Shown in pieces: positions 11,003-52,633 of a stretch of 64,000 nucleotides of DNA (positions are counted from its first letter, which is position 1; each line of letters starts with the position of its first letter). The notes below the pieces were generated by a model that saw nothing but the letters and a program-made list of their open reading frames with translations, was not told the DNA's origin and made no database searches. The position numbers and the translations under genes are program-made. Origin of the DNA: Paraburkholderia phytofirmans PsJN (lineage in GTDB: Bacteria > Pseudomonadota > Gammaproteobacteria > Burkholderiales > Burkholderiaceae). The stretch spans positions 2,294,001-2,358,000 of the forward strand of contig NC_010681.1 of assembly GCF_000020125.1 (NCBI RefSeq). Direction: 5' to 3'.

Positions 11003-11160
11003 TCGCCCCTCTCATTGGGGAGTAGCCGCCTCGAGCGCAATGCTCGAGGGTGCCCGTCAACATACTTGGTGGTCGACAGACCGCCATGGCGTGCACAGCA
11101 CTATGCCTGGCAAGACCGATGACTCGCATTCCGACCTGACCGGGTCGCCGGAATGCGCGT
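11003..11160 (+). promoter_or_regulatory. yybP-ykoY manganese riboswitch
   Basis: The leader holds the invariant GGGGAGTAGCC (11017-11027), a perfect 8-bp hairpin CCTCGAGC/GCTCGAGG (11029-11049), then GTCAACATACTTGGTGG and the second conserved strand GGCAAGACC (11109-11117). These match the two internal-loop strands that bind Mn2+ in yybP-ykoY RNAs. Downstream, CGCATTCCG (11125-11133) pairs with CGGAATGCG (11149-11157) and could form the expression platform. The regulated gene at 11197 belongs to a manganese-exporter family known to be under this riboswitch, which is strong contextual support. Confidence 0.88.
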
Positions 11161-11196
11161 CATCGCGTACGTACTGCGCGGCCCGGCTCACAACCT

Positions 11197-44454: not shown

Positions 44455-46773
44455 ATGAGTTACCCCCCTGTCGTTCCGTTTGCCCACGACAAGGCTGATT
44501 CGGGCGCCTTCGTGGGCGGCGCCCCGGCGTTTCGCCAACTGGTCCGGATGATCGACCGGGTCGCCCCGACCGATCATCCTTTGCTCATCTTCGGCCCGAC
44601 GGGTTCGGGTAAGGAACTGGTCGCGCGCCGGGTGCATGCGCACAGCCAGCGCCAGGATCAGCCGTTCGTCGACGTCAACTGCGGCGCGATTCCCGAGAAC
44701 CTCGTCGAAGCCGAACTGTTCGGGCATGTGAAAGGCGCGTTCACCGGCGCGGCCGAAAACCGCCAGGGACTTTTTCAGCAGGTCGGCAAGGGCACGCTGC
44801 TGCTCGATGAAATCGGCGAACTGCCGCTCGCGTTGCAACCGAAACTGTTGCGCGTGCTTGAAACGCGGACCTTCCGTCCGATCGGCTCGTCCACCAGCCT
44901 GCATTTCGCGGGGCGCGTCGTCGCCGCGACCCATCGCGACCTGCGCGAACTCGCGCGTGAAGGGCTATTCCGCGAAGATCTGTTCTACCGTCTCGCGGTG
45001 TTCGTGCTCGCCGTCCCCGGACTCGAGCAGCGCATCGAGGACATCCCGGCGCTCGTCACCCACTTCGCAGCGCAGCACGCGCGCCGTCTCGAGTTTTCGC
45101 CGGCCGCCATCCGGCGGCTTTGCCAGCATTCGTGGCCGGGCCATATCCGGCAATTGCGCAATCTGATCAGCCAGTTGAGCGTGCTCGCCGAAAACACGCT
45201 GATCGATGTCGACTCGCTCGAGCCGTTTCTTGCCAACGAAACCAGCGGTCCGGTGTCGCGCGCGAGTCTCGCCGACATGCTGTTGCAACTCGAAGGCCGC
45301 GACAAGCTCGCCGCCGCCGAAGACCTGCTGATCGACCGCGCGCTCGAGCGCACCAGCGGCAACAAGAGCGCGGCCGCCAGCATGCTCGGCGTGGGGCGCA
45401 AGACCATCGAGCGGCGGCTGAAGTCGCGCGAGGAACATCACCGGGAAGCGCGCAAGTGTCTCGAACACGCGAGCGCGCTGATCGAGGAGTCGAAGTTCGC
45501 GGAAGCGATTCCATTGTTGCGCCGCTGCCTCGATCTGCTGCAGACGCCTCACGAACAGGAAGCCGTGCGCCGTCTGCAGTTCGACGCCTACCGGCTGCTC
45601 GGCATGAGCTTGCGCAGCGTGCACGGCTGGCTTTATGCGGAGGCCACCGCCTGCTACGCCGCCGCGCTGATGGTGGGCGAAGGCGTCTGCGAGCCCGCCG
45701 AGATCGCCGCGATCCAGTTCGGCATCTGGACCACGCAACTGACGACGCTCCAACTCAAGCAGGCGCGCGGCACCGCGCAGAACATGCTGGAGCGCGCACA
45801 GAACGGCGGCGACCGGGTCTCGCTCGACGAAGCCCACGTCGCGATGACCAACACCCTCTTCTGGCTCGGCGACAGCGAGGAAGCGCTGGCCTGTCTCGCG
45901 CGCGGCAACCTGCTCGGCGTGGGGCGCAACGACATCCGTACCGGCTCGCAAGGAATCGATCTTGCCAGCCTCGCGTTGACTTTCGAAGGTCTGGCCGCGT
46001 ATCAGATCGGCGCTTTCGGGCAGGCGCGGCGCGCCATGGAAATGTTGATCCTGCGCGCGTCCGAACCGGGTGCGCACGCGCTCGCTCATGCCGTCAACCT
46101 GCAGGGCGCCGCCTGGCTCGCCTGCCTGTTCGACGACGTGGACCGGCTCGGCCATCTCGCGAGCGAACTCGAATCGGTGTCGATCGCGAACGGCTTCGCG
46201 TTCTATCGCGGCGTCGGCCAGGTGCTGCGCGCCTGCCACCTCAGCGCGCTCGGCCATTCCGACGAAGCGGAAACCGTCATGCTCGACGGCTACGACAACC
46301 ATGTCGTGTGCAACGGCGGTGCGCTGTTCTATTCGTTCAAGACATGGCAGCACGGCGAACTGCTGCTGCGCGCCGGCCGCGCGAAGATCTGCGAGGCGAT
46401 TCTCGCCACCGCGATCGACGAGACCCTCGCCCGCCAGGAGCGCGTCTATCTGGGCGAACTGCTGGTCACCCGGGCGCGCGCGCAATGGGCGCTCGGTGAC
46501 GTGAACGCCGCCGAACTCGGTCTGCGCACCGCGCTGTCCACCGCGCTCGCGTTCGGTTCGGTGCCCGCGCGTGTGGACGCCGCGCGCTATCTCGCCGATC
46601 TGCTGCGCTCCACCGGCCGCGGCGCCGAAGCCATCGACACACTCGAGCGCGGCTTGCGCTCGCTGACCACGGATCCGACGACTCGCGTCACCAGCGCCGC
46701 GAATCTGCTTGCCGAACTTCAGCTGGATGCGTCTTTCAACCTCGACAGTAAAGGACTCGCAAATGGCATATGA
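44455..46773 (+). CDS. Sigma-54-dependent activator with C-terminal helical-repeat domain
   Basis: The 772-residue protein starts directly with the AAA+ sigma-54 activator domain: Walker A GPTGSGKE (48-55), an intact sigma-54-contacting GAFTGA loop (94-99), Walker B LLLDEIGE (115-122). A Fis-type helix-turn-helix follows in the middle (about 303-323, SAAASMLGVGRKTIERRL). The remaining about 440 residues are Ala/Leu/Glu-rich helical pairs resembling TPR-type sensor regions of MalT-like proteins. Usual activators have the sensor first and the helix-turn-helix last, so the order is unusual. DUF917 and racemase-like genes follow in the same operon with overlaps. Confidence 0.88.
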   Translation: MSYPPVVPFAHDKADSGAFVGGAPAFRQLVRMIDRVAPTDHPLLIFGPTGSGKELVARRVHAHSQRQDQPFVDVNCGAIPENLVEAELFGHVKGAFTGAAENRQGLFQQVGKGTLLLDEIGELPLALQPKLLRVLETRTFRPIGSSTSLHFAGRVVAATHRDLRELAREGLFREDLFYRLAVFVLAVPGLEQRIEDIPALVTHFAAQHARRLEFSPAAIRRLCQHSWPGHIRQLRNLISQLSVLAENTLIDVDSLEPFLANETSGPVSRASLADMLLQLEGRDKLAAAEDLLIDRALERTSGNKSAAASMLGVGRKTIERRLKSREEHHREARKCLEHASALIEESKFAEAIPLLRRCLDLLQTPHEQEAVRRLQFDAYRLLGMSLRSVHGWLYAEATACYAAALMVGEGVCEPAEIAAIQFGIWTTQLTTLQLKQARGTAQNMLERAQNGGDRVSLDEAHVAMTNTLFWLGDSEEALACLARGNLLGVGRNDIRTGSQGIDLASLALTFEGLAAYQIGAFGQARRAMEMLILRASEPGAHALAHAVNLQGAAWLACLFDDVDRLGHLASELESVSIANGFAFYRGVGQVLRACHLSALGHSDEAETVMLDGYDNHVVCNGGALFYSFKTWQHGELLLRAGRAKICEAILATAIDETLARQERVYLGELLVTRARAQWALGDVNAAELGLRTALSTALAFGSVPARVDAARYLADLLRSTGRGAEAIDTLERGLRSLTTDPTTRVTSAANLLAELQLDASFNLDSKGLANGI

Positions 46774-47980
46774 ATTACGCCGGAAAGATCTGGAACCGCT
46801 GCTATTGGGGGCAGCGTTCTTCGGTAGCGGCGGCGGCGGCACGATCGAATCCGCGCGGCATCTCGCCGAGCATTTCGTGACCGGTGACTATTACCCCACC
46901 GACACGGTCAAGGTCGTGTCGGTCGACGAGGCCACCGAAGGCGCGGCCGTCATGGTCGCCTACCTCGGCGCGCCCGAAGCGATCAACTCCGCGACCTATC
47001 CGCTCGGCCCCGTGACGGCCGTGCAGAACGTTCAGGCCCGGCTCGCCTCGCAATCGACGAAGCTCGCCTACGTGATGCCGCCGGAAAGCGGCGCGCTGGG
47101 CTTCACGGTGGCGGCGCTGGTGGCGGCGAAGCTCGGCCTCGCGGTGATCGACGCCGACGGCGCCGGCCGCGCCGTGCCCTCGCTGCCGATGCTCACCTTC
47201 GCGGCCGCCGAGATCGATCCGCGCCCGGCGTTTCTGGTGAGCCAGGGCGGCCTGTGCGTCGAGCTCGACGTCACGCCGCGCAACAGCAACCAGGGCGGCC
47301 CGACCCATCAACGCGACGTGTCGGCGATCGTCGAGCAGATGATGCGTCCGGTCGTCGCCGATCCCGAGTTCGGCCAGTTCGGCGGCCTCGCGATGTGGGT
47401 GATGAAGCCGGCGGAGATCCGTCGCGCCACACCGATTCATGGCACCTTGACGCGCGCGCTGGAACTCGGGCGCGCGTTGCAAGCCGGCCGGATCGGCAGC
47501 GCGCAGCAGATGATCGGCTATCTCGCCGAGCATTGCGGAATCGCCGCGCGCGCCATCTCGGAGCCCGGCGAACTGGTTTCGGCCGAGGTCGATACGAGCG
47601 GCGGCTTCGACGTCGGCAAGGTGCATATTCAGGCCGGCCAGCGGACCTATACGGTGCTGTATCAGAACGAGTCGCTGCTCGCGTGGGACAGCGCCAATCC
47701 GCAGCCGATCGTGTTGTCGCCGGATAGCGTTGCGTATTTCGTCGGCGGCGAAGGTCAGGCGATTTTCAGCAACGGCGACCTGCTCCAGGACGACGGCTCG
47801 TTGAACCCGGTGATCGGCAAGCGCCCCGTGACGCTGATCGCATGGCGTGCCGAAGCCGAGTTGCGCAAGCCCGGCCTGATTCTCGACAGCTTCATGCAGC
47901 TGCTGAACACGCTCGGCTATCTCGGGCCCTATGTGCCGCTTGAAACGCTCCACGCCGCACGCAAGGGAGAGGCAGCATGA
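46763..47980 (+). CDS. DUF917 family protein
   Basis: The 405-residue protein fits DUF917, with the Gly-rich N-terminal GAAFFGSGGGGTIESARHL, the acidic pair IDADGAGRAVPSLPM and a C-terminal beta-rich half. DUF917 proteins often accompany hydantoin, racemase or permease genes and relate to hydantoinase-type nickel or acyl-hydrolase families by context, without proven activity. AAAGGA precedes the ATG at 46763, which overlaps the end of the activator gene by 11 bases. The stop overlaps the next start in ATGA. Confidence 0.85.
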   Translation: MAYELRRKDLEPLLLGAAFFGSGGGGTIESARHLAEHFVTGDYYPTDTVKVVSVDEATEGAAVMVAYLGAPEAINSATYPLGPVTAVQNVQARLASQSTKLAYVMPPESGALGFTVAALVAAKLGLAVIDADGAGRAVPSLPMLTFAAAEIDPRPAFLVSQGGLCVELDVTPRNSNQGGPTHQRDVSAIVEQMMRPVVADPEFGQFGGLAMWVMKPAEIRRATPIHGTLTRALELGRALQAGRIGSAQQMIGYLAEHCGIAARAISEPGELVSAEVDTSGGFDVGKVHIQAGQRTYTVLYQNESLLAWDSANPQPIVLSPDSVAYFVGGEGQAIFSNGDLLQDDGSLNPVIGKRPVTLIAWRAEAELRKPGLILDSFMQLLNTLGYLGPYVPLETLHAARKGEAA

Positions 47981-48714
47981 GCACGCCTTCGAACTCGCCT
48001 ATCCGCATCTGCGTGCTCGTGCCCGTCGCTACGTCGGCCTACAACGACCGCATCATGAAGGCCATCGCGCCGGTCTTGCCGTCGGACGTGCAGGTCGAGA
48101 TCCGCAACATCACCACGGGGCATCCCGACATCGAGAACCGCACGAACTGGCTGCAGAACGGCATGCCGGTGGTCGAACTCGCGCAGGCGATCGCCAACGA
48201 CGGCTTCGACGGCATCTGGCTGACCGACTTCGACATGTGCGGCGTCGAGGCCGCGCGCGAAGTGATCGATATCCCGATCATCGGCGGTTTTCCCGCTGCG
48301 GCCTTCACCGCGCTTGCGCTCAGCCAGCGCTTCTCGATCATCACGATCCTGCAAAGTACGCTGGCGATGCAGCGCGGTCATCCGCAGACCTACGGCATCC
48401 AGGACAACTTCGCGTCGATCCGCGCGATCGATTGCCCGGTCTCGCAGCTCGACAATGTCGACGTGGTGGTCGTTCGCACCTTCGAGGCGGCACTGAAGGC
48501 GATCAAGGACGACGGCGCGCAGGCCATTCTGCTCGGCTGCACGGGTTTCGTGGACGTCGCGAGCCGCGTCTCCACGCTGCTCACCGAGGCGCTCGGCGCG
48601 TATGTGCCGGTGATCGATCCGAATCAGGCCGGCTTCAGCTTCCTCGTCTCGCTCGTGCGGATGAAGGTCCGTCCCAGCCGGTTGACGTATAGCAAGGTCA
48701 GTCTGCAGTCGTAA
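47977..48714 (+). CDS. Asp/Glu/hydantoin racemase-family protein with displaced first cysteine
   Basis: The 245-residue protein has the two-lobe racemase fold pattern with VNxNT-like start (ICVLVPVATSAYNDRI) and the C-terminal catalytic LLGCTGF (C188). In hydantoin racemases the first catalytic Cys lies in ACFGDPGLxAARE; here the aligned block is TDFDMCGVEAARE, so Asp84 replaces that Cys and the nearest Cys is four residues later (C88). One-cysteine members, such as arylmalonate decarboxylase, are not racemases. The function may therefore be a decarboxylase or isomerase acting with DUF917. The gene overlaps DUF917 by four bases. Confidence 0.82.
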   Translation: MSTPSNSPIRICVLVPVATSAYNDRIMKAIAPVLPSDVQVEIRNITTGHPDIENRTNWLQNGMPVVELAQAIANDGFDGIWLTDFDMCGVEAAREVIDIPIIGGFPAAAFTALALSQRFSIITILQSTLAMQRGHPQTYGIQDNFASIRAIDCPVSQLDNVDVVVVRTFEAALKAIKDDGAQAILLGCTGFVDVASRVSTLLTEALGAYVPVIDPNQAGFSFLVSLVRMKVRPSRLTYSKVSLQS

Positions 48715-48803
48715 CCCGGGTGATTTTCTCGTCGTGCTCGTCCGGCGCGGCACTATGCCCGCGCAGGATCCCTCCGTTTTCCCGGTCTCTCCCTGTCTCC
48801 CAT

Positions 48804-48831
48804 CGCTTTCGTCCCCATGTGGACGAAAGCG
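48804..48831. promoter_or_regulatory. 11-bp inverted repeat, candidate activator site
   Basis: CGCTTTCGTCC (48804-48814) and GGACGAAAGCG (48821-48831) are a perfect inverted repeat with a 6-base spacer. It lies about 130 bases upstream of a consensus sigma-54 promoter, the usual distance of upstream activator sites. The core GGACGA recurs at 48861 and 48893. Confidence 0.6.
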
Positions 48832-48859
48832 CCCTCTCATCACGCTCAATATGGTCAAC

Positions 48860-48875
48860 TGGACGAAATCGTCCA
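48860..48875. promoter_or_regulatory. Second inverted repeat TGGACGA-AA-TCGTCCA
   Basis: A perfect 7-bp inverted repeat with a 2-base spacer that shares the GGACGA/TCGTCC core with the repeat at 48804-48831. A half site TGGACGA follows at 48892-48898. Together they form an array in front of the sigma-54 promoter. Confidence 0.6.
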
Positions 48876-48958
48876 ATCTTGATGCCACACATGGACGAGA
48901 CTGACCAATCGCCGGTTTGGAAGTCGCCGGCACTCCCGCCTGAACGCGGTTTTCGGGC

Positions 48959-48975
48959 TTGGCACGGTCGTTGCT
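48959..48975 (+). promoter_or_regulatory. Consensus sigma-54 promoter
   Basis: TTGGCACGGTCGTTGCT matches the sigma-54 consensus YTGGCACGrNNNTTGCW at every defined position: GG at 48961-48962, GC at 48973-48974, ten bases between. Transcription should start near 48986. The operon just upstream encodes a sigma-54 activator, and inverted repeats precede the promoter at the right distance. What is transcribed is unclear, see the next entry. Confidence 0.8.
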
Positions 48976-48984
48976 AAAATATTG

Positions 48985-49709
48985 AGACAAAATGTCGCCT
49001 GAACAAGCAACCTGGACCGGCGGCATCCGGAACATGCAGCAAATCCGTCCGACAAGCCGGGGGAGCCTGAGAGACCAACAAGATCACGCGCTGCAAAGCG
49101 TTCGACACACCCACGTCCGGCGACCTGCAGACTGCAACTGAATCGCCGACGTAGCCGAACTCTGGCCTCTCTGTATTTACCGAGACCATTCGGTTAGTGA
49201 TCCGAACCATAGTTGACGCGCCGATCGAGTCCAACGACGCCTTGTCGTTGGCAACAGACCGAGAGAGGGCTGTGCTGTTGTTGTAGTGGTGACTGTCGTG
49301 TGTCGACGCATCGCGACCGAATGCTTCCACAGAGAAGATCGTCGCAATGCGTGACCGCGAAATGGCGGACTCCGCCTGGCTATGTACCAGGCGAGCAGCC
49401 ACGGGGTGCGGCCGTCGTTGCCTTCCCTTGCGGGGACAAGCAGCGGCGGCTTGCTCTTTTTTATCAGGCTGCGTCACGCGCGGCGCATTGACCCATCCTT
49501 TGCGGGACTTTCGAATCATCGGCCGGCGGCGTTGCACGGCCGGCCATCCCGACAGATTTTTTCTGGATCGTCAGACCAGCGGCCTTTTGCATTGCATGAC
49601 CACGCAGATCCACTGCGTGAACGGAATCTGCTTTTTGCAACCCTACGCGGCGTCAGATTGTTAGCGACGTCGTGAGCGGACCACTAGCCATTCACGGGGA
49701 TTCACAACA
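48985..49709. other. About 720 bases behind the sigma-54 promoter without a recognisable gene
   Basis: The first frame behind the promoter is an ATG at 48992 that gives 49 codons (ending 49141) with no recognisable sequence and almost no leader. Beyond it open frames are short or shadow-like on both strands. GGCCGGC (49521 onward) pairs with GCCGGCC nearby, without a following T-run in position for a terminator. Base use is unlike the coding regions. It may be a small RNA gene or the scar of a lost gene. Confidence 0.4.
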
Positions 49710-49898
49710 ATGCATCACCACATTTTCGAAAGCGAACTCGTTCATCTGGAACGCGTGATCGCCTGCGCGTCACGTGAACCGTTCCCGCCCACCTACTGGC
49801 GCGACCGCGTCGAACACCTGAAAAACTGTCCGCACGCGCCGCTGTTCAGCTATCGCATTGCCCGCCTGACCCGTCTTGTCGCCGAACTGAACGGATAA
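49710..49898 (+). CDS. Small conserved-looking protein
   Basis: A 62-residue protein (MHHHIFESELVHLERVIACA..FPPTYWRDRVEHLKNCPHAP) with a predicted helix pair. I have the impression of similar short proteins in Burkholderia. GGGGAT lies in front of the ATG as a modest ribosome-binding site. It is the first convincing gene downstream of the sigma-54 promoter at 48959, some 720 bases away. Function unknown. Confidence 0.6.
   Translation: MHHHIFESELVHLERVIACASREPFPPTYWRDRVEHLKNCPHAPLFSYRIARLTRLVAELNG

Positions 49899-52633
<2,735 letters not shown>

Follow-up and report, generated by a model that had tools for sequence, protein, structure and literature searches.

A conserved sigma-54 promoter, its neighbouring activator gene and a predicted structured RNA in Paraburkholderia phytofirmans

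What does a sigma-54 promoter with a perfect consensus match transcribe when the DNA behind it appears to hold no gene? This question is raised by a locus in a 64,000-nucleotide stretch of the Paraburkholderia phytofirmans PsJN genome, the whole of which is referred to here as the window. The initial annotation had described such a promoter with repeats resembling activator sites upstream, the operon of a sigma-54 activator directly before it and 720 apparently geneless bases behind it, and had proposed either a regulated small RNA or short peptide as the product or the loss or relocation of the original target.

The promoter, its activator sites and the adjacent activator gene

The following features precede the seemingly empty DNA.

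44455-46773, plus strand: sigma-54 activator with an AAA+ domain (Sigma54_activat, E 4.4e-64), a Fis-type HTH (HTH_8) and a C-terminal TPR-like region
46769-47980, plus strand: S-Me-THD-like (DUF917) protein of the activator operon, assigned by family scan
47977-48714, plus strand: Asp/Glu/hydantoin racemase family protein, assigned by family scan
48820-48835, no strand: third, weaker palindrome resembling an activator site, three mismatches, overlapping the inverted repeat 48804-48831
48860-48875, no strand: activator site 1, palindrome TGGACGAAATCGTCCA, no mismatch to TGGACGANNTCGTCCA, 99 bp ahead of the promoter start
48892-48907, no strand: activator site 2, three mismatches, 67 bp ahead of the promoter start
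48959-48975, plus strand: sigma-54 promoter TTGGCACGGTCGTTGCT, predicted transcription start near 48986

A consensus scan of the window with TTGGCACN5TTGCT returned eight sites with at most two mismatches (4.4 expected), and the promoter at 48959-48975 was the only one with none. Across the 8.2-Mb genome, TTGGCACGNNNNTTGCT had a single match, the TTGGCACGGTCGTTGCT promoter itself, and its reversed control had none. By these measures the predicted promoter is real, as had been claimed at the outset; setting the C of the -12 GC at 48974 would place the transcription start at about 48986. The repeats reported upstream were recovered as well, namely the inverted repeat 48804-48831 in a repeat scan and the three palindromes listed above, the one at 48860 being perfect. 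Site 1 has no second exact copy in the genome. Places resembling it with at most two mismatches numbered 128, compared to 84 for a reversed control; when site 1 and 14 further such places (all three with one mismatch and eleven with two) were checked, a sigma-54 promoter lay 40-250 bp behind site 1 alone. Further targets of the activator among the other places are conceivable.

The gene opening the preceding operon does encode a sigma-54 activator, in agreement with the earlier description, and the GAFTGA motif can be read directly in its sequence. The family scan found no domain N-terminal of the AAA+ domain, and the TPR_16 and TPR_7 matches in its TPR-like C-terminal part fall below the curated cut-offs.

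Activator orthologues (E <= 1e-200) were present in 57 of 144 genomes of the genus. All 57 carried the promoter with at most three mismatches and 56 kept TTGC, with the limit that GG and GC were demanded by the promoter search. Site 1 was located at 98-101 bp in 56 of the 57 (0-3 mismatches), and the best match to site 2 at 66-69 bp, likewise in 56 but with 1-5 mismatches. In every activator genome, a stretch of 13.5 kb or less contained both activator and promoter, which in G086 are separated by about 7 kb. Site and promoter in their exact combination occurred once each in 21 of the 144 genomes and never in the reversed control; 20 of these 21 are activator genomes, and the remaining one, G157, has activator matches in pieces. 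The DUF917-like gene was absent beside the activator in several loci and hence lies outside the stable unit, and the racemase family gene was also missing in several. A stop codon was found inside the activator match in two of the 57 genomes (G148 and G064), both of which keep the promoter, the RNA described below and the 62-aa gene. Poor conservation of promoter and repeats, which the initial annotation had named as evidence against its reading, was thus not what these genomes displayed; as judged from sequence, activator, promoter and sites are a conserved linked unit.

A predicted structured RNA behind the promoter

The description of 720 geneless bases was accurate in that no recognisable gene was found in 48986-49709, but it had missed that this stretch holds a conserved RNA and that a conserved gene for a 62-aa protein (ORF62) starts at 49710. 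That first base of the gene is also the last base of the interval noted earlier. The features behind the promoter are as follows.

48986-49460, plus strand: about 475 nt predicted to be a structured non-coding RNA or a leader (alignment, folding, covariation)
49042-49107, plus strand: conserved 5' block A of the RNA (alignment)
49192-49207, plus strand: conserved block B, GGTTAGTGATCCGAAC, with 13 of its 16 bases shared by the outlying locus L148
49230-49252, plus strand: hairpin H, whose 5' arm (49232-49238) could pair instead with the 5' arm of the final stem
49262-49460, plus strand: RNA core, modelled from the alignment as R1
49410-49462, plus strand: long GC-rich hairpin with its stem at 49410-49451 and TTTTTT behind it at 49457-49462, resembling a terminator in the window
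49622-49709, plus strand: conserved stretch ahead of the 62-aa gene that includes a stem at 49646-49674 (alignment, folding)
49710-49898, plus strand: ORF62, conserved 62-aa protein (codon-position substitutions)

A DNA search of the genus with the stretch behind the promoter matched 29 of 144 genomes, among them G085 with a 28-bp match and G151 with a fragment without promoter; with the divergent G014 added, a 28-row alignment was obtained, from which L002 and L028 (duplicates) and L041 and L042 (promoter not found) were left out. Alignment A1, from which L007 was also dropped, has 27 rows, and codon counts were made without L040. Inspected by eye, the 28-row alignment displayed conserved blocks at about 49042-49106, 49190-49290 and 49330-49455, then a part that varies up to about 49620, after which conservation resumes and extends into the 62-aa gene. 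Of the 98 indel runs that 27 relatives show relative to the window within 49190-49455, 83 were not multiples of three, and substitutions across 49262-49455 in 26 relatives showed no codon phase (361/364/304). A coding region on either strand of 49190-49455 was considered and rejected: 8 of 28 sequences had no open frame there on either strand, the frames open in 20 of 28 differed, and both indels and codon phase spoke against it.

We also noted by eye that 49272-49286 and its counterparts in relatives, a conserved block (block C) of the form AGAGAGGGCTGTGC..TGTAG, contain a tiny frame GTG-CTG-(TTG)n-TAG that seems to stay in-frame in most length variants. This is probably triplet-repeat slippage, and L017 breaks the frame; a minimal leader peptide is conceivable.

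The consensus structure (59 pairs, 27 rows), which was drawn from alignment A1 itself, was paired in 91.2% of cells, compared to at most 53.7% for slid versions. Cells with a change on both sides numbered 61, relative to 26.8 ± 4.6 in shuffled alignments (reached by 0 of 500) and at most 31 in slid versions, and the score was 0.228 compared to 0.179 ± 0.006 after shuffling and at most 0.104 after sliding; covariation among relatives, which the initial annotation had suggested looking for, is present. Two of the five measures in this comparison were weaker, being equalled or exceeded by 15 and 62 of 500 shuffles. In helices 3 and 6, several pairs failed in 9-12 of the 27 sequences. Helix 1 (AGAGAGGG with a U run) has no pair changed on both sides and was not relied on. 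In the fold, G-U cells (275) outnumbered A-C cells (46), which places it on the plus strand, the strand read by the promoter. Folding z values for the window were -3.19 for the core and -2.45 for the 475 nt. Collectively, about 49042-49460 folds as a conserved plus-strand RNA that is non-coding and has compensatory changes, and the seemingly empty DNA behind the promoter is conserved and probably functional. A search of 48900-49720 found no Rfam match at the gathering score (best 16.9 bits, E 1.4, gathering score 43.2), and the structured RNA is not in Rfam. Three matches at a permissive threshold were at chance level and were discarded.

The six Ts after the final stem in the window make termination at about 49462 likely. 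A smaller hairpin (49437-49453) precedes the same six-T run, and five terminator-like sites were counted in the region over both strands, compared to 1.6 expected. A run of four or more Ts follows the final hairpin in 11 of 28 genomes and is absent in the other 17, which argues that the hairpin is not a terminator everywhere. Such a run was present in nine of ten genomes where the spacer between stem and 62-aa gene is at least 249 nt and in two of 17 with a shorter spacer; by this pattern, the RNA may stand alone in some lineages and be a plain leader in others. Locus L124 of P. madseniana RP11, for example, combines a long spacer with a T run, and locus L125 of P. graminis C4D1M has a short spacer and no long T run. 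Hairpin H itself has changes on both sides. Its alternative arm ranks first among 382 sequence windows, partly via G-U pairs, in triplet-like sequence, and this triplet-like character leaves the case for the alternative pairing weak. A bistable regulatory RNA of a new class under double control can be envisaged, in which the sigma-54 activator would decide synthesis, and the competition of hairpin H plus terminator with the 49232-49238/49414-49420 pairing would decide between a small RNA and the following gene (that for the 62-aa protein or for an AraC-type regulator). We hold this scheme to be speculative and rather improbable.

Genes behind the promoter and the spread of the RNA

The 62-aa frame has the substitution pattern of a coding sequence, with 209/137/585 changes by codon position and no indels in 26 relatives compared to the window. 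No family was found for it in Pfam, NCBIfam or PHROGs and no relative among solved structures, and its relatives are an uncharacterised small-protein family. Matches to ORF62 at E <= 0.001 occurred in 140 of the 144 genus genomes, mostly weak and often in several copies.

Which gene follows the promoter in other genomes, a comparison the initial annotation had proposed, has more than one answer. The 62-aa family stands behind it in 40 of the 57 activator genomes (27 close loci, L146, L147 and L149-L159), an AraC-type HTH protein in nine (L137-L145; one was scanned with Pfam and the others resemble it in sequence), DUF1842/DUF1843/radical SAM genes in five (L160-L164; the proteins of L160 and L161 were scanned, and L162 lacks the first DUF1843 frame) and other genes in two (L148 and L165). 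The last case, G153, has the RNA without a co-directional gene: a convergent gene for a short-chain fatty acid transporter has its 3' end directly after the RNA, and the 13-kb stretch of this genome yielded no 62-aa-family gene, though activator, promoter and RNA are kept. A permease, the example once offered for a lost target, was not seen as the first co-directional gene behind the promoter when the listed frames were read by eye.

Outside the genus, two loci of another genus (L219 and L220) have a 65-aa ORF62 homologue starting 59-63 nt behind the promoter's first base, and database copies of it carry the name Caballeronia. A further genus provided seven loci, with DUF1843-type genes behind the promoter in four (L221, L222, L224 and L225) and a protein of about 575 aa in two (L223 and L226); in the short stretch L227 no promoter was seen. 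The radical SAM maturase of L161 belongs to TIGR03913 (GDL-peptide type, 996.8 bits). The operons of L160-L164, L221, L222, L224 and L225 suggest what this activator type controls elsewhere. The frames behind the promoter in L165, L223 and L226 span 575-611 aa, and the one scanned, L226, had no Pfam match.

The structured RNA was found behind the promoter in 38 of the 57 activator genomes, comprising the 27 sources of model R1, G014 and ten loci (L137-L146) in which R1 matched at 34.8-90.4 bits behind the promoter on the strand it reads. It is kept whatever follows: it precedes the 62-aa family in 28 loci and an AraC-type gene in nine, and G153 has no co-directional gene behind it. Those ten loci lie outside the training set of R1, as do three others that it matched, L007, L041 and L071, at 62.9-122.9 bits. 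Beyond the 38, G157 has an R1 match at 67.6 bits and G151 a fragment. Both look like decaying copies: G157 (L071) keeps RNA and promoter, but its activator matches are fragmented and its 62-aa match is incomplete, and G151 (L093) retains a 3' RNA fragment only, without the promoter. A family-wide R1 search of 398 genomes gave 14 matches, 12 of them at known loci. The other two, in G139 (28.5 bits) and G394 (25.6 bits), were marginal, had no site-plus-promoter nearby and were not accepted as RNA loci. At L148, an outlying locus, R1 scores only 13.9 bits, yet the matches to blocks B and C exceed those of 200 out of 200 shuffles. Twelve relatives (L147 and L149-L159) had no R1 match, though promoter and 62-aa-family gene are kept, so that the RNA is either not needed there or diverged past recognition. 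The exact core motif was found in 18 stretches, all from Paraburkholderia or from strains labelled Burkholderia sp., in a collection that may omit the window's genome; the hosts include P. caledonica, P. kirstenboschensis, P. domus, P. phenoliruptrix, P. rhynchosiae, P. aspalathi, P. dilworthii, P. madseniana, P. graminis, P. fungorum and P. sediminicola.

In an activator tree built by a quick method, the 28 close RNA loci grouped together (SH-aLRT 96), as did the nine AraC loci (99), and L146 joined the twelve loci without R1 match (96). The tree left out L093 and also L080, whose activator lies outside the stretch and whose genome, G086, is represented by L166. By this topology the RNA would predate the groups, with loss or divergence in one.

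Proposed mechanism, competing explanations and known systems

From sequence, the promoter and its sites are conserved, the activator is linked to them, the RNA fold is non-coding and on the plus strand, and the 62-aa frame is conserved as coding. We favour, with a probability of roughly 0.6, a reading in which a dedicated sigma-54 activator drives a structured RNA of about 475 nt that ends partly at the hairpin with six Ts and serves partly as leader of the 62-aa gene. The activator encoded just upstream would bind the TGGACGAnnTCGTCCA sites and, with sigma-54 polymerase, start transcription at about 48986; the product would be a long structured non-coding RNA, part of which would end in the window at the hairpin and six Ts, at about 49462. 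The remaining transcripts would run into the 62-aa gene at 49710 with the RNA as their 5' leader, and the RNA may exert control in cis over the following gene or in trans over other messages. The first branch of the initial annotation, a regulated small RNA or short peptide, is thereby supported by a predicted structured RNA followed by a conserved small gene, whereas its second branch, a lost or moved target, fits poorly with a 62-aa family that stands behind the promoter in 40 of the 57 genomes and starts 59-63 nt behind its first base in two genomes of another genus.

The alternatives differ in what they make of the RNA and of the gene. A stand-alone sigma-54-dependent small RNA, acting in trans and ended at the T-run hairpin, with the 62-aa gene a separate unit under its own promoter, would suit the six Ts in the window, the concurrence of T runs with long spacers, the persistence of activator, promoter and RNA in G153 and the nine AraC loci that keep the RNA without the 62-aa family. 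It would, however, need a promoter for the gene, and a simple scan found no sigma-70-like one in 48700-50400; a co-directional gene follows the RNA in 37 of the 38 RNA loci, and the start of the 62-aa family gene so close to the promoter in L219 and L220 indicates that the gene is probably inside the sigma-54 unit. We regard such a separate RNA as possible, albeit on the improbable side. The presence of the 62-aa family behind the promoter in 40 of the 57 genomes, with or without a detected RNA, together with predicted leaders of 474-739 nt in 27 genomes, would be expected of an ordinary long 5' UTR in which the 62-aa protein is the sole product and the RNA structure serves no separate function; yet the conserved blocks, compensatory changes and plus-strand bias, and the retention of the RNA with another gene, or none, behind it, make this explanation decidedly unlikely.

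That the promoter is a relic whose target was lost or moved could draw on the more distant activators, which stand in front of another operon, that for DUF1843, DUF1842 and a radical SAM protein of the GDL-peptide type. Against this, promoter and site are kept in all 57 activator genomes, a conserved RNA and gene lie behind the promoter, and the window's genome has no TIGR03913 gene above the cut-off (best 42.4 bits, cut-off 591.75), so that we give a relic hardly any credence.

One activator and one promoter with near-constant geometry have been kept in 57 genomes while the product behind them changed between a 62-aa protein, an AraC-type regulator, a radical SAM peptide operon and no co-directional gene. 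The unit is a natural experiment on how regulatory RNAs arise within an existing regulated unit. To our knowledge, few bacterial RNAs have their own dedicated sigma-54 activator.

CrcZ-type RNAs carry repeated CA-rich Hfq/Crc-binding motifs (AANAANAA), and GlmY is a sigma-54-dependent small RNA in many enterobacteria. One report describes the Pseudomonas sigma-54 activator CbrB as directly switching on the regulatory RNAs CrcZ and CrcY through upstream activator sites, and as controlling at least 61 genes through non-palindromic subsites (PMC6296734). CrcZ/CrcY are the nearest analogue in design, a sigma-54 activator acting on a non-coding RNA; in contrast to CbrB, the sites in the window are palindromic, with one exact site-plus-promoter copy seen per genome. 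The motif AANAANAA occurs nowhere in the window and at most once in each of 28 leaders, no Rfam family matches at the gathering score, and the window RNA is not of the same family as CrcZ/CrcY. GlmY, a topic of PMC7073468, shares the predicted sigma-54 dependence, whereas the window RNA has no Rfam match at the gathering score. Attenuator and riboswitch leaders resemble the locus in having a structured conserved RNA, a terminator-like hairpin, a co-directional gene and a possible alternative pairing, but differ in that a T run of four or more is absent here in 17 of 28 genomes and no Rfam family is matched. Operons for GDL-motif peptides with TIGR03913 maturases share a related activator and the same kind of site and promoter (five Paraburkholderia and four other-genus genomes); in contrast, the window's genome has no such maturase above the cut-off, and the 62-aa protein has no Pfam match.

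No earlier account of this promoter and RNA locus was found in the accessible portion of the open-licence literature. A P. phymatum study reports RpoN-dependent genes, and the terms 'small RNA' and 'non-coding' are absent from its main text (PMC5979394). A DUF1842/DUF1843/radical SAM cluster is listed among quorum-sensing-controlled genes of Chromobacterium (PMC12114271).

Two minor observations concern the RNA of a relative and another part of the window. The RNA core of L144 (G107) contains a long expansion of the hexamer CTGTGG, and the window's only Rfam match at the gathering score is a manganese (yybP-ykoY) riboswitch at 11005-11187, with 55.2 bits.
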